A DNA stretch of 64,000 bases, taken from IMG/VR virus record IMGVR_UViG_3300021376_000042, positions 1 to 64,000 of that record; one strand, written 5' to 3'. Shown here piece after piece: positions 1,993 to 59,617 of this stretch (its first letter is position 1; each line of letters begins with the position of its first letter). Position numbers and translations under genes: made by a program. Origin of the DNA: a virus. Below the pieces are notes generated by a model. That model made no database searches. It was not told the DNA's origin and saw nothing but the letters and a program-made list of their open reading frames with translations.

Positions 1993-3492
1993 ATGCAAAG
2001 ATTACAAACAATAACTGTTGTTGGTGCAGGCACTGCAGGATTAGTGTCAGCACTTATACTTAAAACGCGATTTCCTCACATTGACGTAAAAATTGTAAGA
2101 TCAAAAAAAATTGGTATCATCGGTGTGGGCGAGGGATCAACAGAACATTGGGCTGAATTTTTAAGGTATACTAACATAGATTTTAAAGAAATCATAGGTG
2201 AATGCGATGCCACATTTAAATGTGGTGTTTTTTTCAAAAATTGGGGTGTTGATGATTATATGCATAGTCTTGGCGGCGCAGACATCAATACCACTTGCGG
2301 TCAAACAAATGTTGCTTTTGCAAAATATATATCAGAACAGCAATCTAAAAAGATTTTAAACCCATTAGAATCATGGGATCATCAAGTATTCTCTGCAGAG
2401 TTTTCGTTTGAACAATCACCATTTAACCAATATCATTTTAATACGTTTAAATTGAATTCACTCTTAGAGAGAAAATGTAAGCAAAGAAATATCAATATTT
2501 TTGATGATGAGATTTTAGATGTGAAAGTTGATGATCAAAATAATATTTCTTTTTTGGTGGGCGAAGAACAAGAACACTACTCAGATTTCTTTATCGACAG
2601 TACGGGATTTTCTAGAATTTTAATGAAAAAACTTGGTGCTACTTGGCAATCTTACAGCGATTGTTTGAAAGTCAAGGCAGCAATTACATTCCAAACACCA
2701 TTAGAAGATGAATTCAATATCTACACGCTCGCAGAAGCAAAAAATGCTGGTTGGATGTTTAGAATTCCGGTGTGGGATAGATATGGAAATGGATATATTT
2801 ATGACAGCGATTTCATTACCAGAGAACAAGCTGAAGAAGAAATGGTAAATCACTTTGGTCGCGACATTCAAATTGGTAGAGAATTTAAATTTGATCCAGG
2901 AGCACTTGATAAAGTTTGGGTAAATAATTGTTGTGCTGTTGGATTGAGTTCTTCATTTTTTGAGCCGCTAGAGGCAACTTCTATCGGAAGCACAATTCAA
3001 CAAATATTTTTTCTGACGCACAAACTGATAAACTATAATCAAAAGACTATAGATGAGTATAATAAACAAGTAAACAGTATTTTTTTGAATATCAGAGATT
3101 TTGTGTTTTTACACTATCTCAGTGGCAGAAGCGATACAGAATTTTGGAAGAATATCTCAACAGTAAGAATACCAGATACTCTACATTATAATCTGGAAAA
3201 GTGGGAACACAAACTACCAGTTCAGGAAGATTTTACTAACACTTCTAACTATAGAATGTTCAACGCATCTAATTTTATTCAAGTATTATATGGTGTTAAC
3301 AAATTCAATATTGATTCAATAAAAACTGAATACCAAAATTTACCACTGTATTTTAATAATGAAGCCAATAACAATCTAAAGAGCAAACTCAATCGTTATG
3401 AATTCGCGCCAAAAATTGGACATAAAGAATTTATCTCTAGAATAAGAACAGCATATTTTAAAATGAAAGAAGAAAATCCGTTTTATCAATAA
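1993..3492 (+). CDS. Flavin-dependent (tryptophan-type) halogenase
   Basis: This 499-aa protein has the flavin-binding GxGxxG at residues 11-16 (GAGTAG) and the family motif IGVGEGST near residues 43-50. Catalytic Lys is at position 76 in the TFKCGVFF context (the PrnA Lys79 equivalent). The WxWxIP box is present as W254-M-F256-R-I-P, with the second Trp changed to Phe. The FEPLEATSIG motif contains the active-site Glu. Enzymes of this family make hypohalous acid from reduced FAD, oxygen and halide, and halogenate an aromatic substrate via the Lys. A cyanophage member (VirX1) is known as an iodinating halogenase. The substrate here is unknown. A flavin reductase partner is not seen nearby. 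Confidence 0.88.
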   Translation: MQRLQTITVVGAGTAGLVSALILKTRFPHIDVKIVRSKKIGIIGVGEGSTEHWAEFLRYTNIDFKEIIGECDATFKCGVFFKNWGVDDYMHSLGGADINTTCGQTNVAFAKYISEQQSKKILNPLESWDHQVFSAEFSFEQSPFNQYHFNTFKLNSLLERKCKQRNINIFDDEILDVKVDDQNNISFLVGEEQEHYSDFFIDSTGFSRILMKKLGATWQSYSDCLKVKAAITFQTPLEDEFNIYTLAEAKNAGWMFRIPVWDRYGNGYIYDSDFITREQAEEEMVNHFGRDIQIGREFKFDPGALDKVWVNNCCAVGLSSSFFEPLEATSIGSTIQQIFFLTHKLINYNQKTIDEYNKQVNSIFLNIRDFVFLHYLSGRSDTEFWKNISTVRIPDTLHYNLEKWEHKLPVQEDFTNTSNYRMFNASNFIQVLYGVNKFNIDSIKTEYQNLPLYFNNEANNNLKSKLNRYEFAPKIGHKEFISRIRTAYFKMKEENPFYQ

Positions 3493-12666: not shown

Positions 12667-12722
12667 ATATATACGTTTGTGTATAGGTTTTGTTTAGGGT
12701 CAAAGTTATAAAGGAGTTAAAC

Positions 12723-13301
12723 ATGAAGACAGTCGGCGATAAAATTGAAAAGTTTGTTGTAACTGGTGTAAAGCCAGGAGCACTTGAGCCTACTGATGCA
12801 TTTGAAAATATTACAGATCTTTCTTTTGAAGGCAAGTGGAAGGTCATTGTTTATTATCCAAAAGATTTCACATTCGTATGCCCAACGGAAATTTTGGCAT
12901 ACGATAAGTTGAATAAAGATTTTGCTGATCGCGATGCGGTTCTTCTTGTCGGTTCAACTGACAATGAATTTTGTAAATTGGCTTGGAAGAATGCGCATGA
13001 GGGGTTGAAGAACACCACTTGCTGGATGTTTGCTGATACTCATCGCGATCTCGGCGATCATTGGGATCAAATGAGCGAAGGTCTTGTAGAGCAACTTGGA
13101 GTTTTCTTCAAGCCTGCTGGCGCTGCTCTTCGCGCAACATTCATTGTTGATCCTAGCAATGTGATTCAGCATGTGACGGTGAATAGTCTTGCAGTTGGAC
13201 GCAATGCTGATGAGACTCTCCGCGTTCTTGACGCATTACAAACTGGTGAACTTTGCCAGTGTAATCGTGAAGTTGGTGGTAAGACACTCAAGGATCTGTA
13301 A
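12723..13301 (+). CDS. 2-Cys peroxiredoxin (AhpC/TSA family)
   Basis: The 192-aa protein has the peroxidatic motif KDFTFVCPTE (Cys near residue 56) and a C-terminal resolving-Cys region GELCQCNREVGG, so it is a typical 2-Cys peroxiredoxin. Such enzymes reduce hydrogen peroxide and organic peroxides using thioredoxin- or AhpF-type donors. Length is normal for the family. The start is the ATG at 12723 with AAAGGAG seven bases upstream. A phage-borne copy would protect the infected cell, or phage DNA and proteins, against oxidative stress. The next gene's ATG overlaps its stop (TAATG). Confidence 0.9.
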   Translation: MKTVGDKIEKFVVTGVKPGALEPTDAFENITDLSFEGKWKVIVYYPKDFTFVCPTEILAYDKLNKDFADRDAVLLVGSTDNEFCKLAWKNAHEGLKNTTCWMFADTHRDLGDHWDQMSEGLVEQLGVFFKPAGAALRATFIVDPSNVIQHVTVNSLAVGRNADETLRVLDALQTGELCQCNREVGGKTLKDL

Positions 13302-13705: not shown

Positions 13706-13864
13706 ATGTCTGACGTGAAACAAGTAAAGTGTGGTTGTGGTCGTAGTCCAACAGGTTACTGCGTTGGTCTACATAAAATGACAAATGAACAATATAAGGC
13801 TCATCTTGACCAACAGCAGAAATCATTGAACGAACAGACCAAACCACAATTTCTAGTTGATTAA
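13706..13864 (+). CDS. CDGSH-like/zinc-binding small protein (52 aa)
   Basis: The 52-residue frame has the cluster CGCGRSPTGYCVGLH at residues 9-23. It follows the order of a CDGSH iron-sulfur site (C-x-C-x2-S...C-x-G-x-H), with one residue fewer before the third Cys and Val in place of Asp. It may bind [2Fe-2S] or zinc. The C terminus is a Gln-rich helix. AAAAAAGGAG lies upstream of the ATG. The stop codon is one base before the acceptor half of the permuted tmRNA, so the two must share a transcript and be separated by processing. Confidence 0.65.
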   Translation: MSDVKQVKCGCGRSPTGYCVGLHKMTNEQYKAHLDQQQKSLNEQTKPQFLVD

Positions 13865-13865
13865 T

Positions 13866-14108
13866 GGTAGTAAACCTTTGACTAAAGGTGTTTCGGACGT
13901 GGGTTCGACTCCCACCTTCTCCACCATCGACGGGGAAGAAATGGCTTCGACGGGGCAAGTAATAACCCAAAGGCTACCCGAAAGGTGACGAACGTAATTC
14001 GCACAAATCAAGTAAACGCAAACGATGATGTTTACGAAATGGCTCTCGCTGCTTAATTGCAGTATGAGATTACCAGAGTTGACCGCTTGGTAACAGAAAG
14101 GTCAGGAT
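13866..14108 (+). ncRNA. ssrA: Circularly permuted (two-piece type) tmRNA
   Basis: The acceptor half comes first: T arm GTGGG-TTCGACT-CCCAC (13899-13915), acceptor strand CTTCTCC (13916-13922), A, then CCA (13924-13926). Five bases later the coding half begins with GGGGAAG (13932-13938), pairing with CTTCTCC and giving G3-U70, the alanine identity pair. Helix P2 joins the halves: GGTAG and CCTTTG (13866-13870, 13875-13880) with CTACC and CAAAGG (13974-13978, 13968-13973). The tag frame GCA...TAA (14018-14056) reads ANDDVYEMALAA, ending in a ClpXP-type LAA. An H-type pseudoknot follows: TTACCA/TGGTAA interleaved with TGACC/GGTCA (14070-14104). It would rescue stalled ribosomes. Confidence 0.93.
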
Positions 14109-14136
14109 GGTGGGCGAAATGCCCACCCTTCTTTAT
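14109..14136 (+). terminator. Terminator of the tmRNA unit
   Basis: The 7-bp stem GGTGGGC/GCCCACC (14109-14115 and 14121-14127) with a GAAAT loop is followed by CTTCTTTAT. It sits directly after the tmRNA pseudoknot. Confidence 0.8.
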
Positions 14137-14171
14137 ATTATGACACACACAACACACAAAGGAGATATAAA

Positions 14172-14431: not shown

Positions 14432-14464
14432 GGGTGGTGGTGCGAACCACCACTCTTTTCTTTC
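14432..14464 (+). terminator. Rho-independent terminator
   Basis: The stem GTGGTGG/CCACCAC (14434-14440 and 14447-14453) with loop TGCGAA is followed by TCTTTTCTTT. A small GACTC/GAGTC hairpin (14415-14428) lies just before it. Confidence 0.8.
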
Positions 14465-15121: not shown

Positions 15122-16147
15122 ATGAGAATTATTGAAGACGTGAAGTTAGATTACAAGGATGTTCTCATTACACCTAAACGATCTACTCTTGCTTCGCGCA
15201 GTGAAGTTTCTCTTGAGAGAAAATTTAAATTCAAACATGGCGGTGAGTGGTCTGGCGTTCCAATTATTGCTGCTAACATGGATGGAGTTGGCACCTTTGA
15301 GATGGCTGAGGAACTCAACAAGCATAAGTGTTTAGTTGCTGTCACCAAACATTATCCTGAACATGATTTGATCAATCATTTCGCATTGAGATTACATAGC
15401 AGCATTTATTCCTTGGGTATCTCAGATGCTGATCTGCAGAAGTTCGATAATGTCTACTACTCTGCTGTTCTTCATCAAACTATGAAAGTTTGTGTTGATG
15501 TTGCGAATGGATATACACAAGCATTTGTTGATTTCGTTTCACGATTTCGCGACAAGTATCCATCAGCAATACTGATGGCTGGTAATGTTGTCACACCAGA
15601 AATGACAGAGGAATTAATTCTATCTGGTGTCGACATCGTGAAAGTTGGCATTGGTCCTGGCTCTGTGTGCACAACACGCAAGATGACGGGGATCGGCTAC
15701 CCGCAGTTGAGTGCAGTAATTGAATGCGCTGACGCTGCTCATGGTCTCAAGGGTCATATCATAGCGGATGGAGGGTGTTCCGTTCCTGGAGACATTGTGA
15801 AAGCATTTGCTGCGGGTGCCGATTTTGTGATGCTTGGTGGAATGTTGGCTGGTCACAAGGAAGGTGGCGCATCTTCATTCGGTGACAATAAGTTCTATGG
15901 TATGAGTTCAGATACCGCCATGGATCTTCATAATGGTGGTGTGGCTAACTATCGAGCAAGCGAAGGTAAGACAGTTGAGATTCCATATCGTGGAGAAGTA
16001 AGCAGAACACTACAAGATATTCTTGGTGGTCTGCGTTCGGCATGTACTTATGTTGGAGCGAGTGAATTGAAAGAGTTGAGTAAGCGAACTACCTTTGTTC
16101 GTGTTACACAACAATTGAATAATTCCTTGAGTGCTTATGAGATCTAA
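15122..16147 (+). CDS. guaC: GMP reductase (GuaC; IMPDH/GMPR family)
   Basis: The 341-aa TIM-barrel protein has the IMPDH/GMPR active-site loop [20 protein letters not shown] with its catalytic Cys, the [14 protein letters not shown] terminus and phosphate-binding IADGGCS plus MLGGMLAG. Length and lack of CBS domains match GMP reductase (about 347 aa in E. coli) rather than IMP dehydrogenase. It would convert GMP to IMP with NADPH and so shift guanine nucleotides from degraded host DNA towards adenine nucleotides, fitting an AT-rich phage. It follows the hydrolase by six bases. Confidence 0.85.
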
Positions 16148-37951: not shown

Positions 37952-40900
37952 ATGGAATTTAATGTTGATCCGTATTATGATGATTTTGAGCAAAATGCTA
38001 AAGATAATAACTATATGCGCATTATGTTCAAACCTGGAAAGGCTGTACAGGCACGTGAACTTACGCAAATTCAATCTATTCTACAGAATCAAATCAAACA
38101 ATTCGGCGATCATATCTTTCAAGATGGATCACCAGTTATTGGTGGAAACTTAACTCTAGATAATAAAGTAAAGTACATTAAACTACTTGAGACGTATAAT
38201 AATCAAGATATTGAAGTTACAAATTTTGTTGGCACAATTATTAGAAATAGCACTGGAACGATTCAGGCTAAAGTTCTAGCAACATATTTCCCTGTTGATG
38301 GTATACCAACTCTTATGGTAAAATACCTAACAGGAAATGAGTTTACAGACGGCGATGTCGTCAGAATCATCAATTCTACAACAGAAGCACAATTAGTTGC
38401 ATCAAATGCTACTGGTACTGGTACAGTTGTGTCCATTAACGAAGGTGTGTTCTATGTTGATGGTTATTTCGTGCAAGTTAATGATCAAACTGCAGTTGCA
38501 TCTGCGTATGGTACATCAGCAAACGTAAAAGTTGGATTAGAAATAAGCGAGAATATCGTTGACAGCGAAATTGATGCAACTTTATTAGATCCAGCACAAG
38601 GATCATTTAACTTCCAAGCTCCTGGCGCCGATCGTTATCAATTTAATTTAACATTATCAACAAGACCATTAGATACGCAAGTTGACGAATCTAAGTTTTT
38701 TGAATTGATGAGATTAGAAAATGGCAGTATTACAAAACAAGTAAAATATCCTGTTTATGCCGAACTAGAAAAAACATTAGCTCGTAGAACATTTGATGAA
38801 TCTGGCGACTACACTGTTCTTCCATTCCGCGCATCAGTTACAGATAGCGCAAGCGGAAATAATTATATTATTGCAATTGAACCAGGTAAGGCATATGTAA
38901 AAGGTTTTGAATTTGAAACATTAGCAACTCTGAAATTAGAAGCAGAAAAACCAAGAAGCGCTTCTGATATCAAAGCACTTGTTGATACAGATGTTGATTT
39001 ATCTTACGGTAATTACATATATGTAACTTCTGTTCGCGGAACAAGTAATGGATTCATAAACATTGCTGGTTTAGAAAAAGTAGACATTCATTTGGCGCAA
39101 ACCAATAATGTTACTGCAACTGGCACTCATTCCGGAACTGCAAATGCATTCTTCTATGCTAACACCAGAATTGGTACAGCACGAGTTAGAAACTTTATTC
39201 GTTATACCCCAGATTCTTTTGGAGTTGATGCTTCAAATGTTGACTCAAATGGCGTCTATAAAGTTTATCTCACAGATATCGATATTGAACCATTAACAGT
39301 AAAAGTTAATATTGCATCTTCAAATGCAAACACATTACGATTCAATGACAAAATGTCTCCGAATACGAATGTCTATAGTAATGTTTCAATCACAGTTTTA
39401 CCAATTCGACTTGATGCGATTGCTAATGTTAACACAGCAAATGTGTTTATTAACTCTTATCGTTTAAATGCCAACTCAGCAGTTGCCAACGTCTTTAACT
39501 CCAATGTAAATGTTGGTAGTGTAATTCATGTTGGTAACATGATTAGACAAGTTGTTTCTGTAAATACAACTGGCGATTTTCTTACTGTTAATACTGCATG
39601 GGATAGAACAATTGAAGCAACCAACAATTTATCCAATCCATTAGAAGTTTATATTCAAACACCATATCTTCAAAACGTCTCCTCTCAAACTAGAACTATT
39701 GAAAGATATGATGGTCCTACTAGAACATTATTTCTAGATTCACCATTTAATAATAATGGTATTGCAGATGCTAATAGCGTTATTTCGTTCAACTATAATT
39801 TTGAGCATGCTGAGTCTTTGGTAGCAGGTCCAGCTGTTGGAAATAATTTGGCAAAAGTTGCAAATGCATCAATGAATGTTGCATTGAATTCAAAATATTT
39901 GGGTGGTGAAACTGCCGTAGAAGAAAGAATAAAAAATGGATTAATCTTTAAATTACCAGGTAATTATATTAAACGTTCTTCTATTAATAATGCAGATTAC
40001 AACTCAACAAAATTTTTCTCAAACAGATCAAATAATGGAACAGCAGGTGTATTTGCTATTGCGCAAGGTTCAGGACTCGAATCTTATGAAACCATTCCTT
40101 GGACGGATTCAACAAGCGCAATTCAAGATAATTTAATTTTAATTGTTAGAAATAATAACGGAAACACATATTTCCCTAATGGATCCATCGTACAATTAAC
40201 TTCTGCTAATATTGCGATTGGTTCTCCTGCTATCTCATTAACTGTTAATACAAATGTTCCTGATATAATCAGCGCTGATTTAATAGTAAATGTTAAGCAA
40301 AATGATGCAGAAGATTCTATTCGTAATAAGAATTTTATTTCAAATACAACATTTTCTGCAACGTCAAGTTCATTTACTTACCCAACAGCGATAAACGGAA
40401 ATACAACAGTTACATTACCAGGTTATGGAATTGTTGCAAATATTAATGTTTCTCATGGATTTATTTTCTTAACTGATGCAACTTATAATAGTGTGCGCCC
40501 AGGAGATTCTATTGGTCTATTTGTGCCAGATGTTGTAAAAGTTAATAGAATATTGAAGGGTAACACAACGCATCTGCCAGATGCAAATAATTACACAGAT
40601 ATTACTGATCAATTTTATTGCGATTTCGGTCAACGCGATGATATGTATGATCATGCTAAATTGGTTTTAAAAGAGGGATATAATGTTGCTAATGCGAAGA
40701 TGTTGGTTCATGTTGATTTTTATCAACATGTTTATAACTCATCCAATACATCATTCTTCTCAATAGACTCATATTCGTTGTCTCAATATGAAAATGGGCT
40801 TATACCAATTTATGTTTCTCAAGCAGGGCAATTTTTTAATTTACGCGACTGTTTAGACTTCAGACCAACAAGACAACTTGGTAGCGGAACAGGTGCATTT

Positions 40901-42838
40901 CAAAACCCAAACATAGCTGCGCCAGATGAGATTACTGAACTTTCGCTAGAATATTATCTACCTAGAATCGATAAATTAGTTCTTTCTAAAGATAAAGAAT
41001 TTAGAATAGTAAAAGGTCGCTCATCACCACAACCTGTTGCTCCAGCAGATCTAGATGATGCAATGACACTTTATACTATTTCATTGCCGCCATATGTTTC
41101 AAATATCAAAGAAATTAAACTAAAATATAAAGACAATAGAAGATATACTATGAGGGATATCGCTTCTATTGATAAACGTCTGCAAAAAGTTGAATTTTTT
41201 ACATCATTGAACAATGTTGAGAATCTAGCGCTAGCAGATCAAACTGAATATGAGGACGGTACAAAGAAAGAAAAATATGGTCTCATCGGCGAAAATTTCA
41301 GGAATTTTAATATTGCTGATTTTAGAAATGTTGACTTTAGAGTTTCATTGAATAATGGATTTATGTTACCTGCAGTAGCATCATACCCCGTTGGATTGCA
41401 GAATATTGGTAATTCATCCACAAAATTAAACAAACGCACTGTCAGCTTAAATTACACAGAAACACCTGCAATTACACAAGGTTTGTGTTCCGATAAAGCA
41501 GTCTCTATTCAACCATTTTTGTTTGGACAATTTAATGGTGTTGTTTCTATTGTTCCAGAAAGTGATTATTGGGTAAACGAGCAACTTAAACCAGAAATTA
41601 TTAGTGTTCCAGAAAGAATTATTGAACATCATCACTTTACAAGAGAAGTTGTCAGAGAACCTCCAGCCCCAGTAACAATTCAAAACATTGTGCAAACGAC
41701 CAATGTTACGAATCAATATATTACTACACCAGGCACAAATCCACCTGTACAAAATGTCATTTACAACGTCGTGGTAAATAATCCTCCTCCGCCACCAATT
41801 ATTGTGCCCCAACCGCAACCACCAGAGCCACCAATACATACTTCGCAACCCGAGCCATGGCCAGAACCGAGGTGGGATGAGCCACCACCATGCCCAGCAC
41901 CATGGATGAATGTTACACTTTCTGATGGAACAGAAATAAGTGCAGGTGAATTAAAAGTTGGGATGTTTGTGAGTACAATGCACGAAAATACTCTCGAATG
42001 GGGTAAACATGAAGTCACACACGTAGAATCAATACAAGATATTGAACGTGTAGAAATTGAATTCGATCATGTGAATTTTGTTTGCTCAAAAGATCACAAG
42101 TTCTATGTAAATAATGAGTGGGTGGAAGTTTATAACTTAAAAGCTGGTGATGTTGTTTACAGTCAGCCAGAAAGTTATGAAATTAAATCTATCAAATCTT
42201 ATGCAACTGGTGAAGTTGTAAGAATCACCGTGAATGATGCGCATACTTATATTTGTGAGGGATTATTGTCACATAATAAAATGCCAGCATTCCCACCTCC
42301 AGAATTTTTACCACCTGATCCTCCTCCTCCACCACCACCTCCACCTGTAAATCCTCCGATTCCAGAACCACCACCGATTGTGTATCCACCGCCATTGGAT
42401 CCACCAATTCCGCCTTACATACCACCACCAGTTGAGGAATTACCTCTGCCACCAGTGGTATTACCAGCTCCACCTCCAACTGAACCGAGTACTCCTCCAC
42501 CATATAAACCAGTGATCGAAATACCATGGATTATACCGCCAATTACACCAGTCACATTTGGTGGGTTTGATGGCAGCAATTTCTATCCAATAATTATGCC
42601 ACCATATGATGCACCAACGGCGGCGTTACTGGAGTTGTGGTCAGTGCCACCAGATATTCCAATCTTCACACAACCAATCACTCTTGGTCCAGCACCTTTG
42701 AATGAGATTGATTATTCACAACCTGTCATCGATATTTCTGATGTTGCTCGCGATGATTACGTTGGCGGTGGCGGTGGTGGTGGCAGCGGTGGGCGCGGTG
42801 ATTTCGATTTTGGTATGTTCGAATATGCTGTACATTAA
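37952..42838 (+). CDS. Large tail structural protein (DUF4815-type) with embedded Hint domain
   Basis: This 1628-aa protein begins MEFNVDPYYDDFEQNAKDNN and FKPGKAVQARELTQIQSILQ, the start of a large structural protein family (DUF4815) found next to gp8 in marine T4-like phages. Residues 1-1260 are beta-rich. At about 1270-1313 a Pro-rich stretch leads to a Hint (intein-like) domain from Cys1314 to Asn1442. A second Pro-rich tract follows (1445-1530), then a Gly run and the end DFGMFEYAVH. It is likely a baseplate-rim or fibre-attachment protein. If the Hint domain reacts, the Pro-rich flanks could be cleaved or joined. Confidence 0.75.
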   Translation: MEFNVDPYYDDFEQNAKDNNYMRIMFKPGKAVQARELTQIQSILQNQIKQFGDHIFQDGSPVIGGNLTLDNKVKYIKLLETYNNQDIEVTNFVGTIIRNSTGTIQAKVLATYFPVDGIPTLMVKYLTGNEFTDGDVVRIINSTTEAQLVASNATGTGTVVSINEGVFYVDGYFVQVNDQTAVASAYGTSANVKVGLEISENIVDSEIDATLLDPAQGSFNFQAPGADRYQFNLTLSTRPLDTQVDESKFFELMRLENGSITKQVKYPVYAELEKTLARRTFDESGDYTVLPFRASVTDSASGNNYIIAIEPGKAYVKGFEFETLATLKLEAEKPRSASDIKALVDTDVDLSYGNYIYVTSVRGTSNGFINIAGLEKVDIHLAQTNNVTATGTHSGTANAFFYANTRIGTARVRNFIRYTPDSFGVDASNVDSNGVYKVYLTDIDIEPLTVKVNIASSNANTLRFNDKMSPNTNVYSNVSITVLPIRLDAIANVNTANVFINSYRLNANSAVANVFNSNVNVGSVIHVGNMIRQVVSVNTTGDFLTVNTAWDRTIEATNNLSNPLEVYIQTPYLQNVSSQTRTIERYDGPTRTLFLDSPFNNNGIADANSVISFNYNFEHAESLVAGPAVGNNLAKVANASMNVALNSKYLGGETAVEERIKNGLIFKLPGNYIKRSSINNADYNSTKFFSNRSNNGTAGVFAIAQGSGLESYETIPWTDSTSAIQDNLILIVRNNNGNTYFPNGSIVQLTSANIAIGSPAISLTVNTNVPDIISADLIVNVKQNDAEDSIRNKNFISNTTFSATSSSFTYPTAINGNTTVTLPGYGIVANINVSHGFIFLTDATYNSVRPGDSIGLFVPDVVKVNRILKGNTTHLPDANNYTDITDQFYCDFGQRDDMYDHAKLVLKEGYNVANAKMLVHVDFYQHVYNSSNTSFFSIDSYSLSQYENGLIPIYVSQAGQFFNLRDCLDFRPTRQLGSGTGAFQNPNIAAPDEITELSLEYYLPRIDKLVLSKDKEFRIVKGRSSPQPVAPADLDDAMTLYTISLPPYVSNIKEIKLKYKDNRRYTMRDIASIDKRLQKVEFFTSLNNVENLALADQTEYEDGTKKEKYGLIGENFRNFNIADFRNVDFRVSLNNGFMLPAVASYPVGLQNIGNSSTKLNKRTVSLNYTETPAITQGLCSDKAVSIQPFLFGQFNGVVSIVPESDYWVNEQLKPEIISVPERIIEHHHFTREVVREPPAPVTIQNIVQTTNVTNQYITTPGTNPPVQNVIYNVVVNNPPPPPIIVPQPQPPEPPIHTSQPEPWPEPRWDEPPPCPAPWMNVTLSDGTEISAGELKVGMFVSTMHENTLEWGKHEVTHVESIQDIERVEIEFDHVNFVCSKDHKFYVNNEWVEVYNLKAGDVVYSQPESYEIKSIKSYATGEVVRITVNDAHTYICEGLLSHNKMPAFPPPEFLPPDPPPPPPPPPVNPPIPEPPPIVYPPPLDPPIPPYIPPPVEELPLPPVVLPAPPPTEPSTPPPYKPVIEIPWIIPPITPVTFGGFDGSNFYPIIMPPYDAPTAALLELWSVPPDIPIFTQPITLGPAPLNEIDYSQPVIDISDVARDDYVGGGGGGGSGGRGDFDFGMFEYAVH
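41891..42277 (+). other. Hint/intein-like (BIL-type) domain inside the 1628-aa tail protein
   Basis: Residues Cys1314-Asn1442 (129 aa) show block A CPAPWMNVTLSDGTEISAGE, then LKVGM; block B FVCSKDHKFYV with His1382; and blocks F/G ITVNDAHTYICEGLLSHN with His1441-Asn1442. The next residue is Lys1443, not Cys, Ser or Thr. The absent endonuclease and non-nucleophilic +1 residue match bacterial intein-like domains, which cleave and sometimes splice, rather than a classical intein. Confidence 0.85.
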
Positions 42839-46306: not shown

Positions 46307-47701
46307 ATGGCAAATTCAACAAATGTTGCAATAATTTCGACAGCAAATACATTTGATCAATGGCGCATTCGCGATAATTTACAAGCGAATGACGTAAATG
46401 AAATTGCGCGCGGAAATTTTACAAAACCAACTGGTAATGTTATTATTACAGATGGTTTCTTGCTGCTAGATAAAGCAACTGGAACAACATTAACTGTAGA
46501 TGCGAATGCTCGAGTCAGTGGATTAATGTCTGTTGACTCAGTCGAAACTGATGATGATGGATATATTTTAGTTCAATCTGGTAATGTTGCAATGAGTAAT
46601 CGCGCTTCTGGCGCATTATTTCAAGCAAACATTAATGTCAAGTTTGATTCAGCCAATGTTGTTTTCTCAAATTCAAATGTGCATTTTACTAATAGCAGTC
46701 AAAATGCTATTTTAAATATCAAACCAAATACAATCTTTCAGACGAATGTCAATGTAGATGGTGTGTTGTATGTTGCAACATCAGCAAATTTATTCATTGC
46801 AAATATTACCAATGTACATGCATCAAATATTCGTATAGACAGTGATCCGACTTATTATATTCAGAATGGTAATAGTGTATTCAATGATGTGCAGGTTAGA
46901 GGAAATCTAACTGTTCTTGGATCATCGGTTAACGACAGCGACACTCTAGTTTTACGACAAAACGTTGCTAGTGATGGCGATGGCATCTTCAGAATAAAGC
47001 GTGGATCTTCTGGTAAAGGTAATGCAGAACTTAAATTTATTGCAGCTTCTGAAGTTTGGCAAGCAACAGCGAATGCCAATGGATCCCCAACACATGTAAC
47101 AATATTAACCACGCAAAATGTTACAGATTCAGTTGTATCAACAAGTACAGTAAATGCAGCTGCTCCTAATTCTGTAAAAACAGCATATGATCAAGCCACT
47201 AATGCACGAGACCAAGCAAACACTGCTCGCGATCAAGCGAATACAGCTCGCGATCAAGCCAACACGGCTCGTGATACTGCCAATGGCGCGTATGGACAAG
47301 CGAATGGAGCATACACGCAGGCTAATGGCGCTTATGCGCAAGCCAACGGAGCATATGGACAAGCCAATGGCGCTTATGCACACGCCAACGTCGTATACGC
47401 GCAAGCAAATGCAGCATACGATCAAGCAAATGGTGCATATGGACAGGCTAATGGCGCTTATGCGCAAGCCAACGGTGCTTATGCACAAGCGAACAATGCT
47501 GCTAATACGGTTGCAACTTTTGCTAATGGCACGCTAGTTTTGGCTGCTAGCAATTTGAACTTTAATAACACAGCCAGCATTGATATTACTATCACAGCGA
47601 ATGGTGTAACTCAAACAAATGTTGAGTTTTCTTTGAATCCGACTTCGGCTGTTCCGCATTATCTAGTCAATTTCGCATTAGAAAATTTAGACATAACTTA
47701 A
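46307..47701 (+). CDS. Tail-fibre protein with QAN heptad repeats
   Basis: The 464-aa protein has a virion-attachment head (MANSTNVAIISTANTFDQWR, RDNLQANDVNEIARG) and beta-rich domains (QVRGNLTVLGSSVNDSDTLV, IFRIKRGSSGKGNAELKF). About 15 consecutive heptads of the form A-x-x-Q-A-N-x follow at residues 295-402, and then a small beta tip. Heptads of this kind form trimeric coiled-coil rods in phage fibres. The C terminus is short (NGVTQTNVEFSLNP), so receptor binding may be done by the proteins that follow. Confidence 0.75.
   Translation: MANSTNVAIISTANTFDQWRIRDNLQANDVNEIARGNFTKPTGNVIITDGFLLLDKATGTTLTVDANARVSGLMSVDSVETDDDGYILVQSGNVAMSNRASGALFQANINVKFDSANVVFSNSNVHFTNSSQNAILNIKPNTIFQTNVNVDGVLYVATSANLFIANITNVHASNIRIDSDPTYYIQNGNSVFNDVQVRGNLTVLGSSVNDSDTLVLRQNVASDGDGIFRIKRGSSGKGNAELKFIAASEVWQATANANGSPTHVTILTTQNVTDSVVSTSTVNAAAPNSVKTAYDQATNARDQANTARDQANTARDQANTARDTANGAYGQANGAYTQANGAYAQANGAYGQANGAYAHANVVYAQANAAYDQANGAYGQANGAYAQANGAYAQANNAANTVATFANGTLVLAASNLNFNNTASIDITITANGVTQTNVEFSLNPTSAVPHYLVNFALENLDIT
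47187..47511 (+). repeat. Tandem 21-bp QAN heptad array
   Basis: About 15 consecutive 21-bp units encode [14 protein letters not shown] and AYAQANG heptads. Synonymous third positions differ between units, so the array is kept at protein level and partly homogenised at DNA level. Confidence 0.9.
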
Positions 47702-50370: not shown

Positions 50371-50706
50371 ATGGCGAATCAAGTAGAATTGTATTGCGAT
50401 CAAGGCACAGATTTTTCGTATGCAATAGATTTAAGCAACGATGATAACTCGCCTATCAACGTTGCACTTTACACATTTTCTTCTTCAATTCGAAAGTCCT
50501 TTTATTCTTCTGGTGTAACTGCCAATTTAACTATTACAGTTTTAGATTCTGCGAATGGTAATGTACAAATTTCTATGAATGCTGCCACAACGGCTAATAT
50601 AAAAGCTGGCAGATATCTCTATGACGTGAAAATGAAAACTAATAACAATGTTACGTCTAGAGTTATAGAGGGTATTATTACAGTTTATCCGCAGATTACT
50701 AAATGA
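50371..50706 (+). CDS. Small beta-sandwich fibre-associated protein (BppU-like)
   Basis: The 111-aa protein (QGTDFSYAIDLSNDDNSPIN, then SIRKSFYSSG and GRYLYDVKMK) has the pattern of BppU-N-like/immunoglobulin-type domains that attach fibres in several phages. GAGGAA precedes the ATG. Its stop overlaps the ATG of the giant fibre gene (ATGA), which suggests they are made together, probably as parts of one structure. Confidence 0.65.
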   Translation: MANQVELYCDQGTDFSYAIDLSNDDNSPINVALYTFSSSIRKSFYSSGVTANLTITVLDSANGNVQISMNAATTANIKAGRYLYDVKMKTNNNVTSRVIEGIITVYPQITK

Positions 50707-53700
50707 AGATAACAGTTGGATCAACAAGTAATCTAGTATTTCAACCAGCAACTGATCGCGGCAAATCAGCCAAGATAACAATCAGCAGTGGTGGCGGTGG
50801 TGATGCTGGATCAGCTTACGGTCAAGCCAATGCCGCCAGAGGACAAGCAAACAGTGCTTATTCTCAAGCAAATGGCGCCTATAATGTAGCCAATGCTGCT
50901 TATAATGCAGCAAATAATGCGCAAGTAACAGTATACGCAAACAGTGCATCTGGCGTTACAACACAAAATATTAATTTTGTTAATACTTCAACGATAACAG
51001 TTGAAGTTTCTTCTAGCGGATCTAATGCCAACGTAGCATTTACTGCAGTTAGTGGCGCTGCTTATGATCAAGCAAACGCCGCGAGAGGACAGGCAAATAG
51101 CGCTCGCACAACTGCTAATGGTGCATACAATCAAGCCAATGGAGCCTATGCTCAGGCTAATGACGCTTACGCACAAGCAAACAATGCATATGATGCTGCA
51201 AATAATCGTGTATTGAGAGCTGGCGATACAATGACTGGCAATCTGACCATGTCAGGCGCCACAATCAATGCTGCCACTGCAAATATTAGCACCATTGTCA
51301 CTGGAAATACACTACTATTATCAACAGGTATTGGATCTAATAGTGATGTAACGATAAATGCGAATGGTAATTATACTTGGACGTTTAGAGCCAATGGGTT
51401 GTTAGACTTGCCAGGTAATATCACGAATTTCACAGCATGCAGTGCAATTAATTTTGTTGCGGACAGTTCTGGTGATGGTTATGAATATTCAACAATTGAA
51501 ATTCGACCAGACAGCGGTGCAACATTAGATCAATATCTAATTATTGATCCGACTGCACCAAATCATATTCACATTCGTGCTGGTGGGCAACAAGATAATT
51601 CAAATGCTGAATTATATATTGGTGGCGAGAATAGTTATTTTAAAGTTGATGATGGCGAAAATCCATCAATATCGATTGCTTCGAATAATTATTTTTGGAC
51701 ATTTGATACTGATGGAAAATTAACTATACCTGGCGACATTATTCCAAGTCAAAATTTAACATGGAATCTTGGTTCACCAACAAATAAATTTAACGATTTG
51801 TATATTGGTGGTAACACAGTATATATTGGCGAGGCGATACTTTCTACAAATGGCGACACTGTTACAACCAACACTTTCATTGCAGAACTAGCCTTTGAAA
51901 GTGGTGGATTAAATGTTCTAACTCAAGCAAATACTGCTCGCGATCAAGCCAACAACGCTTATGGCGTTTCAAATGCCGCTTATGGACAAGCAAATGCAGC
52001 ATATGCTGAAGCAAATACGAAACTTCCATTAGTTGGTGGTACAATTTCAGGTGACTTGATTGTTTCTGGCAATCTTGTAGTATCTGGAAATAGTACAACA
52101 CTCAACACTGAAATTCTCATTGTTGAAGACGCAGACATTGTTCTTCTATCAAATGTAACATCAACACCTGCATTGAATGCTGGCTTGATAATTAATCGCG
52201 GCACTTCTCCAAATACATTCTTAAGATGGGCTGAAGATGTTGATAAATGGGGTTGGTCGGATGATGGCTCAACCTTCTACTCATTTGATACTTCTCTTAA
52301 CGCATATGCTCAAGCCAACAATGCCAGAGATCAAGCGAATACTGCTAGAACACAGGCTAACACTGCATACGGACAAGCGAACGATGCTTATGGACAGGCT
52401 AATACAGCGCGCAATCAAGCAAATACTGCCTATGGACAAGCCAACGCAGCGTATGGGCAAGCCAACGCAGCGTATGGGCAAGCCAACGCAGCGTATGGGC
52501 AAGCAAATAGTGCTCGCGATCAAGCCAACACTGCAAGAACAACTGCCAATGATGCATATAATACAGCAAATACGAAGGTAAGTAAATCTGGCGATACAAT
52601 GACTGGTGATCTAACGATCAATACAGTACTGTATGCAAATCAAGCCAATATCACAACAACATTGAATGTTGGTACATCAATTGTCATAGGAACAGGTGGA
52701 GCTGCTGGTGATATCACTGGCGCGAATGCTATTTTCGCAGAATCATTCTTCACAAATGATGGAATCAATCTAGCAACTTCAGCAGCAACCAGCACAGCTG
52801 CATACGTTCAAGCAAATAATGCGCGCGATCAAGCAAACACTGCTCGTGGCACTGCCAATGATGCTTATGGACAGGCTAACACTGCTAGAGATCAAGCGAA
52901 TACTGCTAGAACTACTGCAAATGATTCGTATGCTCAAGCAAACACCGCTAGAGATCAAGCGAATACATCACGTGATCAAGCGAATACTGCTCGCGACCAA
53001 GCCAACACTGCTCGCGACCAAGCCAACACTGCTAGAGATCAAGCGAATACTGCAAGAACACAAGCGAATACAGCGCGGAATCAAGCAAATACTGCATATG
53101 AAAGTGCTAATACTAAATCAGAATCGCCAGCCGTAACTTATTATGTTCAAGCATATGCACCAAATCCTGGCGGCAGTTCAACTTATTATTTTAGATTTCG
53201 TTATCCTAACGGAACAGGCGACAATACTATTAGTGGAGATTTGTTGTATGGCTATAATGATGAGACTGGTGTTGGTGAAGACGAAGATAGTCCAACAATT
53301 GTCTTGCATCCTGGCACAACAGTTAAATTTGTTTTAAGTGATTTGAATCCAGACACTGGCGCTGGATTACAAGTTTTTGCTGTTCAAACATTTATAGCTG
53401 GAGTATATTCTCATGTAACATCAGGAATATATCATATAGCCACAAATGGTAACATAACAACAGGTAAAGGTTTCGCTGATTCTGGTACTATTGTTTGGAC
53501 AATTCCACAAAATGTGCCTGGCACAACACAATATATCTATCGAAGTCCATCCAATAATGATGGTGTTCAAGGACAATTCCGAATAGCAACATATGCTGCT
53601 CCTGCATCTTTACAAGCCAATACTGCTCGCGATCAAGCGAACACAGCAAGAACTCAAGCAAACACTGCTCGCGATACTAGTAACAATTCATATGTGCAAG

Positions 53701-56141
53701 CAAACAGCGCTTATGATCAGGCGAATACTGCTCGCAATACTGCAAACAATGCCTATGTTCAAGCGAATGGTGCGTATGCACAAGCAAATAATGCAGCAAA
53801 TACTGCAAGAGTTTCAGCGAACAGTGGATCAACACTAGACGCAAAACATCTTAATTTCATTAATTCAGCAAGTGTGTTTGTTTCTGTTACTCCTTCTGGA
53901 GACGGAACTAATGCGAATATTTCATTTATAACTTCTGGTGCGTCAATTGGCGATGCTTATGTTCAAGCCAACGCAGCAAGAGATCAGGCGAACACTGCAC
54001 GTGAACAAGCGAATACAGCAAGAACGCAAGCCAATACTGCTCGCGACACTGGCAATAATGCATATGCTCAAGCGAATTCTGATTATATGTCAGCTGAAGC
54101 ATATAGTATTACTGTTACTGAACCAAACCCCGTAGGATTTGTATTCAGAACATTTGAAGATGGCGGCTCCAGTGGTGCCGTATACACTGCCTGGGATAGT
54201 CCCGCGACGCAAGCAAATCCAAGTCTATGGCTTCGACCTGGCAGCACTATTGCATTTAGATTAGTTGATTTGGTATCTCCATTAAACGGACCTCAAGGTT
54301 TTGCACTTTATTCTGATTCTTATACCAGCCTAGTATCTTCTGGATTAACTCATGTCGCGCTTGACGGTACACTAAGTGTTGGTACAAGTGCACAAAACAA
54401 ACAAACTGGCACGTTATACTGGACAATACCATCATCAGCTGCTGGTTCAACTTATTATTATGGATCCAATCAGGGGAACGGAAACCTTTATCGTGGACAA
54501 TTCTATGTAGATTATTATGCTGCTAGTGTACGAAATCTAGCAATGGATGCATTTAATCAAGCAAACACTGCTCGCGACCAAGCGAACACTGCAAGAACAC
54601 AAGCAAATAATTCGTACCTTCAAGCAAATACCGCTCGAGATCAAGCGAACACTGCCAGAGATCAAGCGAATACTGCTCGTGGTCAAGCAAATAACGCTTA
54701 CGCCGAAGCCAATCTTAAATTAAATCTAACTGGCGGTACGATAAATGGATCGTTAAATATTTCTGGTAACTTATTTGTTACTGGCAATACGACATTTATT
54801 AATACATCAACGTATACAGTTGATGATCCACTAATTTATCTAGCTGCAAATAATATACTCACTGATATTGTTGATATTGGATTTGTCGGCGCTAAAAACT
54901 CAGGCTCATCAGTAACGCATACTGGTTTCGCGCGCGATGCTGGTGACGGAATATGGTATTTGTTTGATAACCTAGCAAATTCTGGTCATGAGAATAATGT
55001 GATCGACTTTGCGAATACTTCACTCGCAACTCTTCGAGCAAATATTGATGCAAATAGTATCACTCTTGTGAGTAATACTGTTGCTACACATGCTAATTTA
55101 ATTTTTGCATTTAATCAAGCAAACACTGCGCGTGATACAGCAAATAATTCTTATGCTCAAGCAAATGTAGCACGCGATACTGCGAATGGTGCCTATGTGC
55201 AAGCAAATGGTGCTTATGCTCAGGCAAATGGTGCGTACAATCAGGCGAATGGTGCTTATGCTCAGGCGAATGGTGCTTATGCTCAGGCGAATGGTGCTTA
55301 TAATCAGGCGAATGGTGCTTATGCTCAGGCGAATGGTGCATATAATCAAGCCAATAATTCTGCGAACACGGTTCGTGTTTATGCAAACAGCGCTGGTGAA
55401 CTTTCAAATAAATTCCTAAACTTCATCAATACTGCAAGTATTCAAGTCGATGTCAGTAGCGTTGATGGAAATGCAAATATAGCCTTTAATACGACTGGTG
55501 CTGCAGTTGCTGACGCTTATGCTCAAGCAAACATAGCACGCAATACCTCTAATAGTGCATATGCTCAAGCAAATAACGCATATAATGCAGCTAATAATGC
55601 AACGGTAAGAGTCTCAGCCAATTCAGGATCCATAACTGTAACACCTAATATCAATTTCATCAATACATCAACTGTTTCCGTTTCTGTTGTATCTGGCGAT
55701 AATGGTAATGCAAATGTTTCGTTAATATCTTCTGGATCGCAACAGTTTACATATGATACAACAACTACCTCTGCCGAAACAGTTGACAGTTGGTCAGCTT
55801 CGACTTATAGAAGTGGTAGATATCAAATGCAAGTGGAAAACCTATTTGGGTTTTTGGCACTTGAAATTATGCTGTTACATGATGGGGCAACGACAAATTT
55901 GGTCAAATATGCTGAAACAACTATTGGTAGTGGTGTTGGTACATTCTCTTCAGATATTAGCAGTGGATTGGTCAGACTTCGATTTACACCGAATGATCCA
56001 ACTTCACAATTAACTTACTATAAATCATTGTTAACCAGTAGAATATCATCAGACGCGTTGCCAATCGATTTAATGACTGGATCAATAGTATTTGATTTAA
56101 TGAACAGCTTCTCACTATCCCCATCAGACTTAAATGCATAA
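50703..56141 (+). CDS. Giant tail fibre (1812 aa) with QAN arrays and two degenerate cupredoxin-like domains
   Basis: Alternating rods and beta domains make up the protein. Heptad arrays (A-x-x-Q-A-N) occur at about ten places. Between them are the fibre domain [17 protein letters not shown] plus [11 protein letters not shown], a domain [19 protein letters not shown] with IGFVGAK, and two all-beta domains at about 53110-53600 and 54085-54530. These two share the frame of the copper-site domain in the next fibre but lack the Cys-His-Met ligands. The C-terminal tip ([20 protein letters not shown] ... [18 protein letters not shown]) looks like a receptor-contact tip. It is a long tail fibre by size and position. 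Confidence 0.82.
50809..55602 (+). repeat. Interspersed 21-bp QAN heptad arrays in the giant fibre
   Basis: Arrays lie at about 50809-50931, 51058-51210, 51922-52017, 52303-52578, 52795-53112, 53612-53808, 53950-54078, 54544-54714, 55111-55371 and 55509-55602. At 52446-52504 nearly three consecutive units are identical to the base (unit GCAGCGTATGGGCAAGCCAA, plus C), and at 55249-55340 the units differ by single bases. Confidence 0.88.
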
Positions 56142-56182: not shown

Positions 56183-59100
56183 ATGGCAACAACATTACAA
56201 TTCCGAAGATACGATACGGCAAATATCGCTAATTTAACTGGTGCGGTTGGCGAAATCTTTATTGACATGGATAAAGATACCGTCGTTGTACAAGATGGAT
56301 CTACGGCAGGCGGCTTTCCGTTAGCCAGAGAAGGTGCTTACATACAAGCGAATAATGCACGAGATCAAGCCAATACAGCTCGTGATCAAGCAAATACATC
56401 ACGCGATCAAGCAAATACTGCTCGCAACCAAGCCAACAATGCTTATGCAGAAGCCAATCTAAAAGTTAATTTAACTGGTGGAACAATCAGTGGTAATTTA
56501 GTAATCACTGGCAATTTAGAAGTTCTCGGAAATAGTACAACTCTTAATGTTGAAACATTATCAGTTGAAGACAATGAAATTATTCTTAATTCAAACGTAA
56601 CTGGTTCTCCAACTTTAAATGCCTATATTTCTATCAATCGTGGAACAGATCCAAATGCAAATCTAGTTTGGGATGAAGACACAAATCAATGGAAATGGAA
56701 TGATGGTGATGGAGTATTTTATGCGCTAGACTCATCACTAGATGCATATGCTCAAGCAAACACTGCTAGAGATACAGCTAACGGTGCTTATGCGCAAGCC
56801 AACGGTGCTTATGGTCAAGCGAACGGTGCATATTCTCAAGCCAACGGAGCCTATGCTCAGGCTAATGGCGCATATGCTCAAGCAAATAGTGCAAGAGATG
56901 TAGCCAACGGAGCATACGCCCAAGCCAATGGTGCATATAGTCAAGCCAATACTTCTGCAAACACGGCTCGTGTTTATGCAAACAGTGCTGGTGAGTTGTC
57001 GAATAAGTTCCTAAACTTCGTAAATACAGCAAGTATTCAAGTCAGTGTTTTCGATAATGCTGATGGTAATGCAAATATCTCCTTTAGTACGACTGGCGCT
57101 GCTGTTGCTGATGCTTATGCACAAGCCAACGCTGGTTATGCTCAAGCAAACACTGCTAGAGATACAGCTAACGGTGCTTATGCGCAAGCCAACGGTGCTT
57201 ATGCACAGGCTAACGGTGCTTACACCCAAGCCAATGGAGCCTATGCTCAAGCAAATGGTGCTTATGCCCAGGCAAATGGAGCCTATGCTCAGGCAAACTT
57301 AAAAGTTTCTCTTGCTGGTGATACGATGACAGGCAACTTAAATGTTGCTGCTAGTTTGATAACTCAAAATATTGAGCCTAATTTAAATGTCACATATGAT
57401 ATTGGTACTCCAACTAAACGATTTAAAGATCTGTATCTAAGTAACAGCACAATTTATCTTGGTGAAACAGCACTATCTGCTTCTGGCGATGAGGTGCGCG
57501 CCAATGTATTCAATGCTGCTGTGTCAGTATTAGTAAGTGGTGTCAATGTTCTTGATACTGCCAACGGTGCATACGCTCAGGCAAATGGTGCTTATGGACA
57601 AGCAAATGGCGCATACGGACAGGCTAATGGAGCGTACTCCCAAGCCAACGGAGCATATGCTCAAGCCAATAGTGCCAGAGATGTTGCTAATGGAGCCTAT
57701 GCTCAAGCCAATGGTGCTTATGGACAAGCCAATGGAGCCTACGCTCAAGCAAATGGTGCCTATGCGCAGGCTAATGGTGCTTATGCTCATGCTAATGTTG
57801 TATATGCACAAGCAAATGCAGCGTATGACACTGCTAATCTTAAACTGAGCGCCAGCGGCGGATCTATAAATGGTGATTTGACAATCACAGGAAATTTATT
57901 TGTAACAGGATCTAACACATTACTTAATGTCAGTAATTTGTCTGTAAATGATTCTATCATTTTCTTAGCAAATGGACAGGTTGGTGATGCGTTTGATATA
58001 GGATTCGTTGGTCACTTTGATCGCGGCGCAACACCAACTCACGCTGGTTTGATTCGTAAATCAACAGACAATCAATTTTATCTTTTCGATAATTATGAAG
58101 TAGAACCTACAAATAATATTATCGACATCAATGGAAATAATTTTAGAACTGGTAACTTAAAACTTAACACAATAAATGCTGTTACGTTTGTCACCAATGC
58201 AGGATTAAATGTCACTGATCAAGCCAACTCCGCCAGAGATCAAGCAAACACCGCTAGAGGACAAGCAAACAATGCATATGCTGAAGCCAACCTCAAGGTA
58301 AATCTTTCTGGCGATACGATGACTGGTACATTGAATGTGCAGCATCTTATTCCGACTGCAAATGTTACATATGATCTTGGAACGTCTACAAAACGATTTA
58401 AAGATTTGTATCTCAGTGGGTCGACAATTTATATCGGTGAAACAATATTGTCTACCTCTGGCGATGAGATGCGCGCAAATACATTCAATGCCGCTGTTTC
58501 ATTCTTAAGTGCAGGTTTAAATGTTCTTGATCAAGCCAACTCTGCTCGCGATACAGCAAATGGTGCTTATGCACAAGCCAACGGAGCCTATGCGCAAGCG
58601 AATGGTGCTTATGCTCATGCGAACATTGTTTATGCTCAAGCAAATGCTGCATATGCTCAAGCGAATGCAGATTATCAACCAGCCGTCACTCGCCTTGATG
58701 TAACAAACAATGGCGCGACAGCATATCGTTTTGATCAATATGGCGCAGCAACTGATGATCCAACACTCTATGTTCGTGCTGGTGAAACTATTGCATTTAA
58801 TCTAAACAATGCTGGTCACCCATTTGCGATTCGTGTCTCAAACGGTGGTTCGAACTACGACACTGGATTGACGCACGTTGCAACTGATGGCACAGTAAGC
58901 ACTGGTTCCTCTGCTCAAGGTAAGGTTTCTGGAACACTTTACTGGAAAGTTCCATATACACTTGGCGGAAGCACTTATGTTTACCAGTGCACTGTGCATA
59001 GTGGTATGGTCGGCAACATTGTGATTGAGCCAGATTCAACAGTAATCTACGTTCAAGCCAATGCTGCATATGCTCAAGCCAACGGCGCATACGGACAGGC

Positions 59101-59617
59101 TAATGGCGCATATGCTCAGGCTAATGGTGCTTATGCACAAGCCAACGGAGCCTATGCGCAAGCGAATGGTGCTTATGCTCATGCGAACATTGTTTATGCT
59201 CATGCGAATAATTCATATGATCAAGCAAATACTGCAAGAGATACTGCGAATGGTGCTTATGCTCAAGCAAATGGTGCATATGCGCAGGCGAACGGCGCAT
59301 ATGCACAAGCGAACGGCGCTTATGCTCAGGCGAACGGCGCTTATGGTCAAGCAAATTCTGCTGCAAATACTGTTCGAGTTTCAGCTAATGGTGAATCAAC
59401 ATTAGATGCAAAACAACTAAATTTTGTAAACACAACTTCTATTCAAGTTATTGTTGCTTCTGCAGCTGATGGCACAAATGCTAATATCTCGTTTACAACA
59501 GGTACTGCTTCGGTTGGTGACGCTTATGCTCAAGCGAATGCAGCATTCGCTAAAGCGAATACTGCGGGTGGTGGTGGATCTGATGGGTTTATACTCCATA
59601 TTTTTGGTATAACATAA
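56183..59617 (+). CDS. Tail fibre (1144 aa) with QAN arrays and a cupredoxin-like domain
   Basis: The N terminus (LQFRRYDTANIANLTGAVGE, then DKDTVVVQDGSTAGG) is a common phage fibre head domain. It then repeats the build of the upstream fibre: QAN arrays, GNLVITGNLEVLGNSTT, GDLTITGNLFVTGSNTL and two DIGTPTKRFKDLYL-type domains. At about 830-955 there is a beta domain ending TYVYQCTVHSGMVGNIVIE. Cys936, His939 and Met942 plus His879 (NAGHPF) follow the type 1 copper site of plastocyanin-like proteins. The C terminus is Gly-rich and very short. It is a paralogue of the 1812-aa fibre. Confidence 0.82.
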   Translation: MATTLQFRRYDTANIANLTGAVGEIFIDMDKDTVVVQDGSTAGGFPLAREGAYIQANNARDQANTARDQANTSRDQANTARNQANNAYAEANLKVNLTGGTISGNLVITGNLEVLGNSTTLNVETLSVEDNEIILNSNVTGSPTLNAYISINRGTDPNANLVWDEDTNQWKWNDGDGVFYALDSSLDAYAQANTARDTANGAYAQANGAYGQANGAYSQANGAYAQANGAYAQANSARDVANGAYAQANGAYSQANTSANTARVYANSAGELSNKFLNFVNTASIQVSVFDNADGNANISFSTTGAAVADAYAQANAGYAQANTARDTANGAYAQANGAYAQANGAYTQANGAYAQANGAYAQANGAYAQANLKVSLAGDTMTGNLNVAASLITQNIEPNLNVTYDIGTPTKRFKDLYLSNSTIYLGETALSASGDEVRANVFNAAVSVLVSGVNVLDTANGAYAQANGAYGQANGAYGQANGAYSQANGAYAQANSARDVANGAYAQANGAYGQANGAYAQANGAYAQANGAYAHANVVYAQANAAYDTANLKLSASGGSINGDLTITGNLFVTGSNTLLNVSNLSVNDSIIFLANGQVGDAFDIGFVGHFDRGATPTHAGLIRKSTDNQFYLFDNYEVEPTNNIIDINGNNFRTGNLKLNTINAVTFVTNAGLNVTDQANSARDQANTARGQANNAYAEANLKVNLSGDTMTGTLNVQHLIPTANVTYDLGTSTKRFKDLYLSGSTIYIGETILSTSGDEMRANTFNAAVSFLSAGLNVLDQANSARDTANGAYAQANGAYAQANGAYAHANIVYAQANAAYAQANADYQPAVTRLDVTNNGATAYRFDQYGAATDDPTLYVRAGETIAFNLNNAGHPFAIRVSNGGSNYDTGLTHVATDGTVSTGSSAQGKVSGTLYWKVPYTLGGSTYVYQCTVHSGMVGNIVIEPDSTVIYVQANAAYAQANGAYGQANGAYAQANGAYAQANGAYAQANGAYAHANIVYAHANNSYDQANTARDTANGAYAQANGAYAQANGAYAQANGAYAQANGAYGQANSAANTVRVSANGESTLDAKQLNFVNTTSIQVIVASAADGTNANISFTTGTASVGDAYAQANAAFAKANTAGGGGSDGFILHIFGIT
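56335..59567 (+). repeat. Interspersed 21-bp QAN heptad arrays in the second fibre
   Basis: Arrays lie at about 56335-56462, 56740-56964, 57099-57300, 57550-57840, 58209-58290, 58532-58671, 59044-59373 and 59517-59567. Blocks such as [20 protein letters not shown] (58593 region) recur at 59159 and 57771, showing copying of segments within the gene; a related block is in the 46307 fibre. Confidence 0.88.

Follow-up and report, generated by a model that had tools for sequence, protein, structure and literature searches.

A 64,000-nucleotide stretch of viral DNA (the window; IMG/VR record IMGVR_UViG_3300021376_000042, of which it forms part of 70,789 bp) was found to encode a circularly permuted tmRNA, an RNA that frees stalled ribosomes and marks incomplete proteins for degradation. 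ARAGORN called a permuted tmRNA at positions 13834 to 14147 with the tag ANDDVYEMALAA, and Rfam cmscan (release 15) matched the same site with both tmRNA_permuted (RF04321; 13866 to 14056, 144.2 bits, E = 2.1e-28, full model 1 to 213) and beta_tmRNA (RF01850; 13797 to 14132, 136.3 bits, E = 1.9e-41, whole model covered), for which the curated cut-offs are 47 and 84 bits, respectively. When the alpha, beta, and cyano models were compared, RF01850 was the best of its clan at this site and exceeded its cut-off. The acceptor half comes first and the coding half second, both by sequence and by the RF04321 match, which is the order that had been proposed from the letters alone. Together with covariation and synteny in related phages, these results bear out the original prediction of a phage-encoded permuted tmRNA. 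We estimate from sequence comparison a probability of roughly 87% that this is a functional two-piece tmRNA gene of the betaproteobacterial type and a core gene of a group of uncultivated T4-like aquatic phages; the assignment to the beta type is drawn from a single model score and from a tree of 200 columns whose deep branches are weak.

Anatomy of the gene and covariation of its helices

All of the parts lie on the plus strand. In the RF04321 and RF01850 alignments, the acceptor piece (13866 to 13926) contains the 5′ strands of P2, the T arm, the 3′ strand of the acceptor stem, and an ACCA end, and it is separated by the presumably excised segment TCGAC (13927 to 13931) from the coding piece (13932 to 14134), which begins at G1 of the acceptor stem and has an approximate 3′ end, with the mature ends placed by homology. 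The 7-bp acceptor stem with G3-U70 can be read from the sequence as predicted, with GGGGAAG (13932 to 13938) facing CTTCTCC (13916 to 13922), the latter running directly into ACCA (13916 to 13926 in all, with the CCA at 13924 to 13926). This stem is 100% paired in 40 distinct relatives, the G3-U70 pair is invariant in all 40, and the stem of the adjacent T arm (13899 to 13915) is 99.5% paired. P2 is the 11-bp helix with one bulge that had been described, the 5′ strands GGTAG (13866 to 13870) and CCTTTG (13875 to 13880) pairing with CAAAGG and CTACC at 13968 to 13978 around a single 4-nt bulge; below it, GTTTC (13890 to 13894) pairs with GGGGC (13952 to 13956) in a lower helix that is 100% paired and has two double-change pairs.

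To the 3′ side of P2 lies an upstream pseudoknot, PK1 (13979 to 14004; S1 CG/CG and S2 GTG.CGA/TCGCAC), which is 99 to 100% paired and has five double-change pairs. The claim of a pseudoknot thus stood for PK1 and in part for the structure that follows the tag, where one helix is 95% paired among the 40 relatives and the second, 46% paired, is not conserved. At the end of the gene, a hairpin followed by a T-rich stretch (14109 to 14127; 86.7% paired, five double-change pairs in relatives) has the look of the terminator that had been predicted. A second hairpin, GGTGGTGGTGCGAACCACCACT, is found at 14433 to 14454 and is nearly identical to the 3′ hairpin with which the tmRNA terminates in many relatives.

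Among the 10 close relatives, we counted 16 double-change pairs, compared to 0 to 2 when the partners were slid, and 92% of cells were paired. Across the 40 distinct relatives, double changes occur in 26 of 59 pairs, while shuffles gave a mean of 14.4 and a maximum of 19. Pairing in this set reaches 99 to 100% in the acceptor stem, T stem, P2a, P2c, and PK1; for P2 as a whole it is 99% (P2a), 84% (P2b), and 100% (P2c), with eight double-change pairs, six of them in P2a and P2b. The acceptor stem, P2, and the upstream pseudoknot are supported by compensatory changes, which far exceed the controls. The tag frame is conserved as well, and the prediction, which stood or fell with the acceptor stem, P2, and the tag frame in relatives, held.

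The tag reading frame (14018 to 14056, from ARAGORN) is complete, as had been claimed, with a GCA resume codon, the 12 residues of ANDDVYEMALAA, and a stop codon, and its frame and ends are kept in the relatives called by ARAGORN. This bears on whether the RNA could be a decoy that inhibits host trans-translation by binding SmpB or stalled ribosomes with no productive tagging, much as a tag-less tmRNA of phage DS6A has been cited as an inhibitor of endogenous tmRNA in Escherichia coli (PMC11915505). A decoy would need neither a tag frame nor a resume codon nor a stop codon, all of which are kept in the window and its relatives, and we regard this explanation as very improbable.

Genomic context and presence in related phages

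The baseplate wedge protein of this virus is nearest, at ~40% identity, to those of the T4-like phages Melnitz, HTVC008M, and Mosig. Neighboring genes encode PhoH, an exonuclease, an AhpC-type peroxiredoxin, an EF-hand protein, and a cell wall hydrolase, as well as an IMPDH-like enzyme, a gp59-type helicase loader, and a single-strand binding protein. The phage AhpC/TSA-family peroxiredoxin gene (12690 to 13301) is close upstream. A 52-amino-acid open reading frame with a CxC..S....C.G.H motif (13706 to 13864, plus strand, from the open-reading-frame list), for which no Pfam or PHROG match was found, ends at the 5′ side of the tmRNA and is possibly cotranscribed with it. Elsewhere in the window are a tryptophan halogenase-like gene (1993 to 3492; E = 1.1e-88), a gene for a very large structural protein (37952 to 42838) whose translation contains, by eye, an intein-like (Hint) stretch ending in HN and followed by K, and genes for putative tail fiber proteins with long repeat arrays (46307 to 47701, 50703 to 56141, and 56183 to 59617).

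One contig is 99.9% identical to the window over ~53 kb, and two others are collinear at ~70 to 90% identity; among annotated phages, no close DNA relative was found at an E value of 1e-5, with only short partial matches at E values up to 10. A pattern scan recovered 14 viral contigs carrying this type of tmRNA with gaps of 4 to 8 nt between the halves, and a looser pattern recovered 55. Downstream of the tmRNA, the IMPDH/GMP-reductase-like gene (15122 to 16147, plus strand; PF00478, E = 9.1e-67) serves as a syntenic marker in relatives. An independent search that started from this gene yielded 53 relatives with at least 1.7 kb of upstream sequence, and the tmRNA is located upstream of the IMPDH-like gene in all 53, in 52 by ARAGORN and in the last one by blastn. 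That last contig (L162) had been a candidate for a relative lacking the tmRNA, which was rejected when blastn found the gene (83% identity over 308 nt) that ARAGORN had missed.

The presence of the tmRNA beside the same neighbor in 53 of 53 checkable relatives argues that it is a core gene of the phage group and no captured fragment. Genes for tmRNA are often integration sites, and prophages contain ssrA fragments (PMC9004378), so one could ask whether the locus is a remnant of host DNA or of an integration site that has no present function, as in prophages that integrate at ssrA. The gene is complete and no 3′ fragment, however, and both the double changes that keep pairing in 26 of 59 pairs and the synteny in 53 relatives contradict such an origin, which we consider extremely improbable. 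As a core gene, the tmRNA would be a fixed trait of at least one uncultivated phage group, seen in each of the checkable genomes, and no scattered curiosity.

A search of six related contigs, which may be incomplete, recovered no gene for SmpB, so host SmpB would be used. A sigma-70 promoter scan gave nothing exceeding chance and no promoter was recognized at the tmRNA gene in the window, and no glutamine riboswitch reaches the Rfam threshold there. A late T4-type promoter (TATAAATA/ATAAATA) was sought and rejected, as it is absent at the tmRNA of the window and the window as a whole shows no enrichment of the motif. Several relatives do have ATAAATA directly in front of the tmRNA, which is only a hint that the gene may be expressed late.

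The intervening segment

The 5-nt distance between the mature ends had been proposed to be far shorter than that in cellular permuted precursors. This part of the prediction failed, and a short gap was dropped as a distinguishing trait: a pattern that allowed gaps of at most 30 nt matched 36 cellular loci, mostly from Rhodocyclaceae and Accumulibacter, and 33 of these have gaps of 3 to 5 nt, so the gap of the phage gene is not exceptional. The short-gap tmRNAs of Rhodocyclales (Accumulibacter and Dechloromonas) also resemble the phage gene in the 5′ sequence of P2 but differ from it in being chromosomal and in having 10-amino-acid tags, mostly ANDERFALAA. In an unselected sample of 300 Burkholderiales genomes, the gaps of permuted tmRNAs are mostly 25 to 43 nt; 17 of these genomes scored above the model cut-off, 14 of them strongly, and permuted tmRNA is therefore a minority trait in this order.

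Among members of the phage clade, gaps at this same place range in length from 4 to 90 nt and fall into 13 length classes (L162 not counted), in contrast to the gaps at the cellular betaproteobacterial loci seen, which are roughly constant within a cell lineage. The phage gap alternates between 4 to 7 nt and hairpins of 36 to 90 nt, while the mature halves are nearly identical: only 1 of 273 mature nucleotides differs between L002 (gap of 4 nt) and L186 (90 nt), and the same is true of L195 (5 nt) and L164 (63 nt). The long gaps fold as hairpins, several of which are closed by a 9- to 11-bp stem that starts at the CCA side, and the short gaps resemble the last 4 to 5 nt (TCTAY) of the long gaps, a likeness that may reflect the loss or gain of a hairpin immediately before the RNase P site. 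On a tree of the mature RNA, gaps must have switched between short and long at least 13 times, a figure that is inflated by recombination between alleles; L011, for example, appears to combine a window-like half with an L002-like half as a mosaic. A variable gap between constant mature halves is consistent with a segment that is excised and discarded. The dozens of relatives offer a natural experiment on constraint in a two-piece tmRNA, in which the mature halves covary and the presumably excised gap turns over freely. By eye, the 88-nt gap of L169 resembles a degenerate tRNA, with arms and a TTCGAAT loop; ARAGORN found no intact tRNA inside the long gaps, that of L169 included.

Origin, tag, and proposed function

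A two-piece tmRNA was reported in phage Melnitz in 2022 in a study that also suggested 53 such tmRNAs among phage genomes, of which 50 came from marine or aquatic samples (PMC9004378), and a 2025 tmRNA database holds 79 phage tmRNA sequences (PMC11915505). The gene in the window is thus an addition to the two-piece phage tmRNAs already published. Like it, the Melnitz gene is a permuted tmRNA in a T4-like phage, with a wedge protein ~41% identical to that of the window and a match to RF04321 in the Melnitz record. Unlike it, the Melnitz tmRNA was reported to be of the alphaproteobacterial type and under a glutamine riboswitch (PMC9004378), whereas the gene in the window scores as beta, and the gap between the Melnitz halves is far longer. 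With the betaproteobacterial tmRNAs of RF01850 and RF04321, the phage gene shares the order of the halves, P2, the T arm, PK1, the 3′ hairpin, G3-U70, and an AND...LAA tag. In the phylogenetic tree, nine sequences of the close clade form one group (95/100) on the side with most of the cellular betaproteobacterial sequences, with weak deep support. Elsewhere in the tree, viral sequences are mixed with cellular ones, so the acquisition of permuted tmRNA genes by phages seems to have happened more than once. We also observed an unannotated match (L151) in Stenotrophomonas phage vB_SmaS-DLP_6 (102835 to 103030), with 72.6% identity to a Stenotrophomonas permuted tmRNA.

If the gene acts as a two-piece tmRNA, its transcript, perhaps shared with the 52-amino-acid open reading frame, would fold to bring the halves together through the acceptor stem, T arm, and P2, and host RNase P and 3′ nucleases would remove the short gap to leave two base-paired RNAs. 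Host alanyl-tRNA synthetase would charge the product through G3-U70, and host SmpB would deliver it to stalled ribosomes, which would switch to the phage tag and then be released, the tagged chain passing to host ClpXP or related proteases. The most likely benefit would be ribosome rescue sustained under the high translation load of infection, and phages may manage such rescue themselves. Freeing ribosomes and marking proteins with the phage's own tag, the roles named in the original prediction, are plausible, and much the same ideas have been put forward for the Melnitz tmRNA (PMC9004378).

The tags of the phage clade are 12 to 14 amino acids long, always start with AND, and end with AA, usually LAA, with a variable middle. 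Their length differs from the 10 amino acids of nearly all intact cellular betaproteobacterial tmRNAs examined: among the permuted tags that ARAGORN called in cellular genomes, 42 have 10 residues, the longer ones coming from apparent second copies or miscalls, and standard cellular tags have 10 in 15 of 16 cases. This raises the question of whether the gene serves mainly to supply an altered tag that is degraded more efficiently and redirects proteolysis during infection. For E. coli ClpXP without SspB, a tag lengthened before ALAA has a lower Km, 1.55 μM for AANDENYSENYALAA compared to 3.38 μM for AANDENYALAA, but with SspB the two Km values are equal (PMC8512704). In addition, the length difference amounts to one ancestral event with small later changes, and some other viral tmRNAs have 10-amino-acid tags. 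The tag may possibly suit the protease better, but we think it unlikely that redirected proteolysis is the main point, and sustained ribosome rescue remains our preferred reading. We propose only tentatively, with the odds against it, that the tmRNA has been adapted to phage use both through a longer tag with less adaptor-dependent uptake by ClpXP and through a gap that serves as a fast-changing insertion site, gaining, swapping, and losing 36- to 90-nt hairpins while the mature RNA stays fixed. Gap turnover and the longer tag are two details that we did not find described in the literature searched, which was covered in part and contained no description of rapid gap turnover. The phage group offers a direct test of whether phage-specific tags alter protein turnover during infection.

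Altered tags were also seen in cellular genomes. Two betaproteobacterial genomes (L035, L070, and L084) contain a permuted tmRNA whose gap is TCGAC and whose odd tag ends in VA (ANFDIYDVQHVA and ...QYLNVA), accompanied by a second, weaker match, which in the L035 genome is a standard tmRNA (L071), and a Stenotrophomonas sequence (L034) contains a permuted tmRNA with the tag ANADYYDQDEEVILRVA. These tmRNAs are possibly mobile second copies with altered tags.
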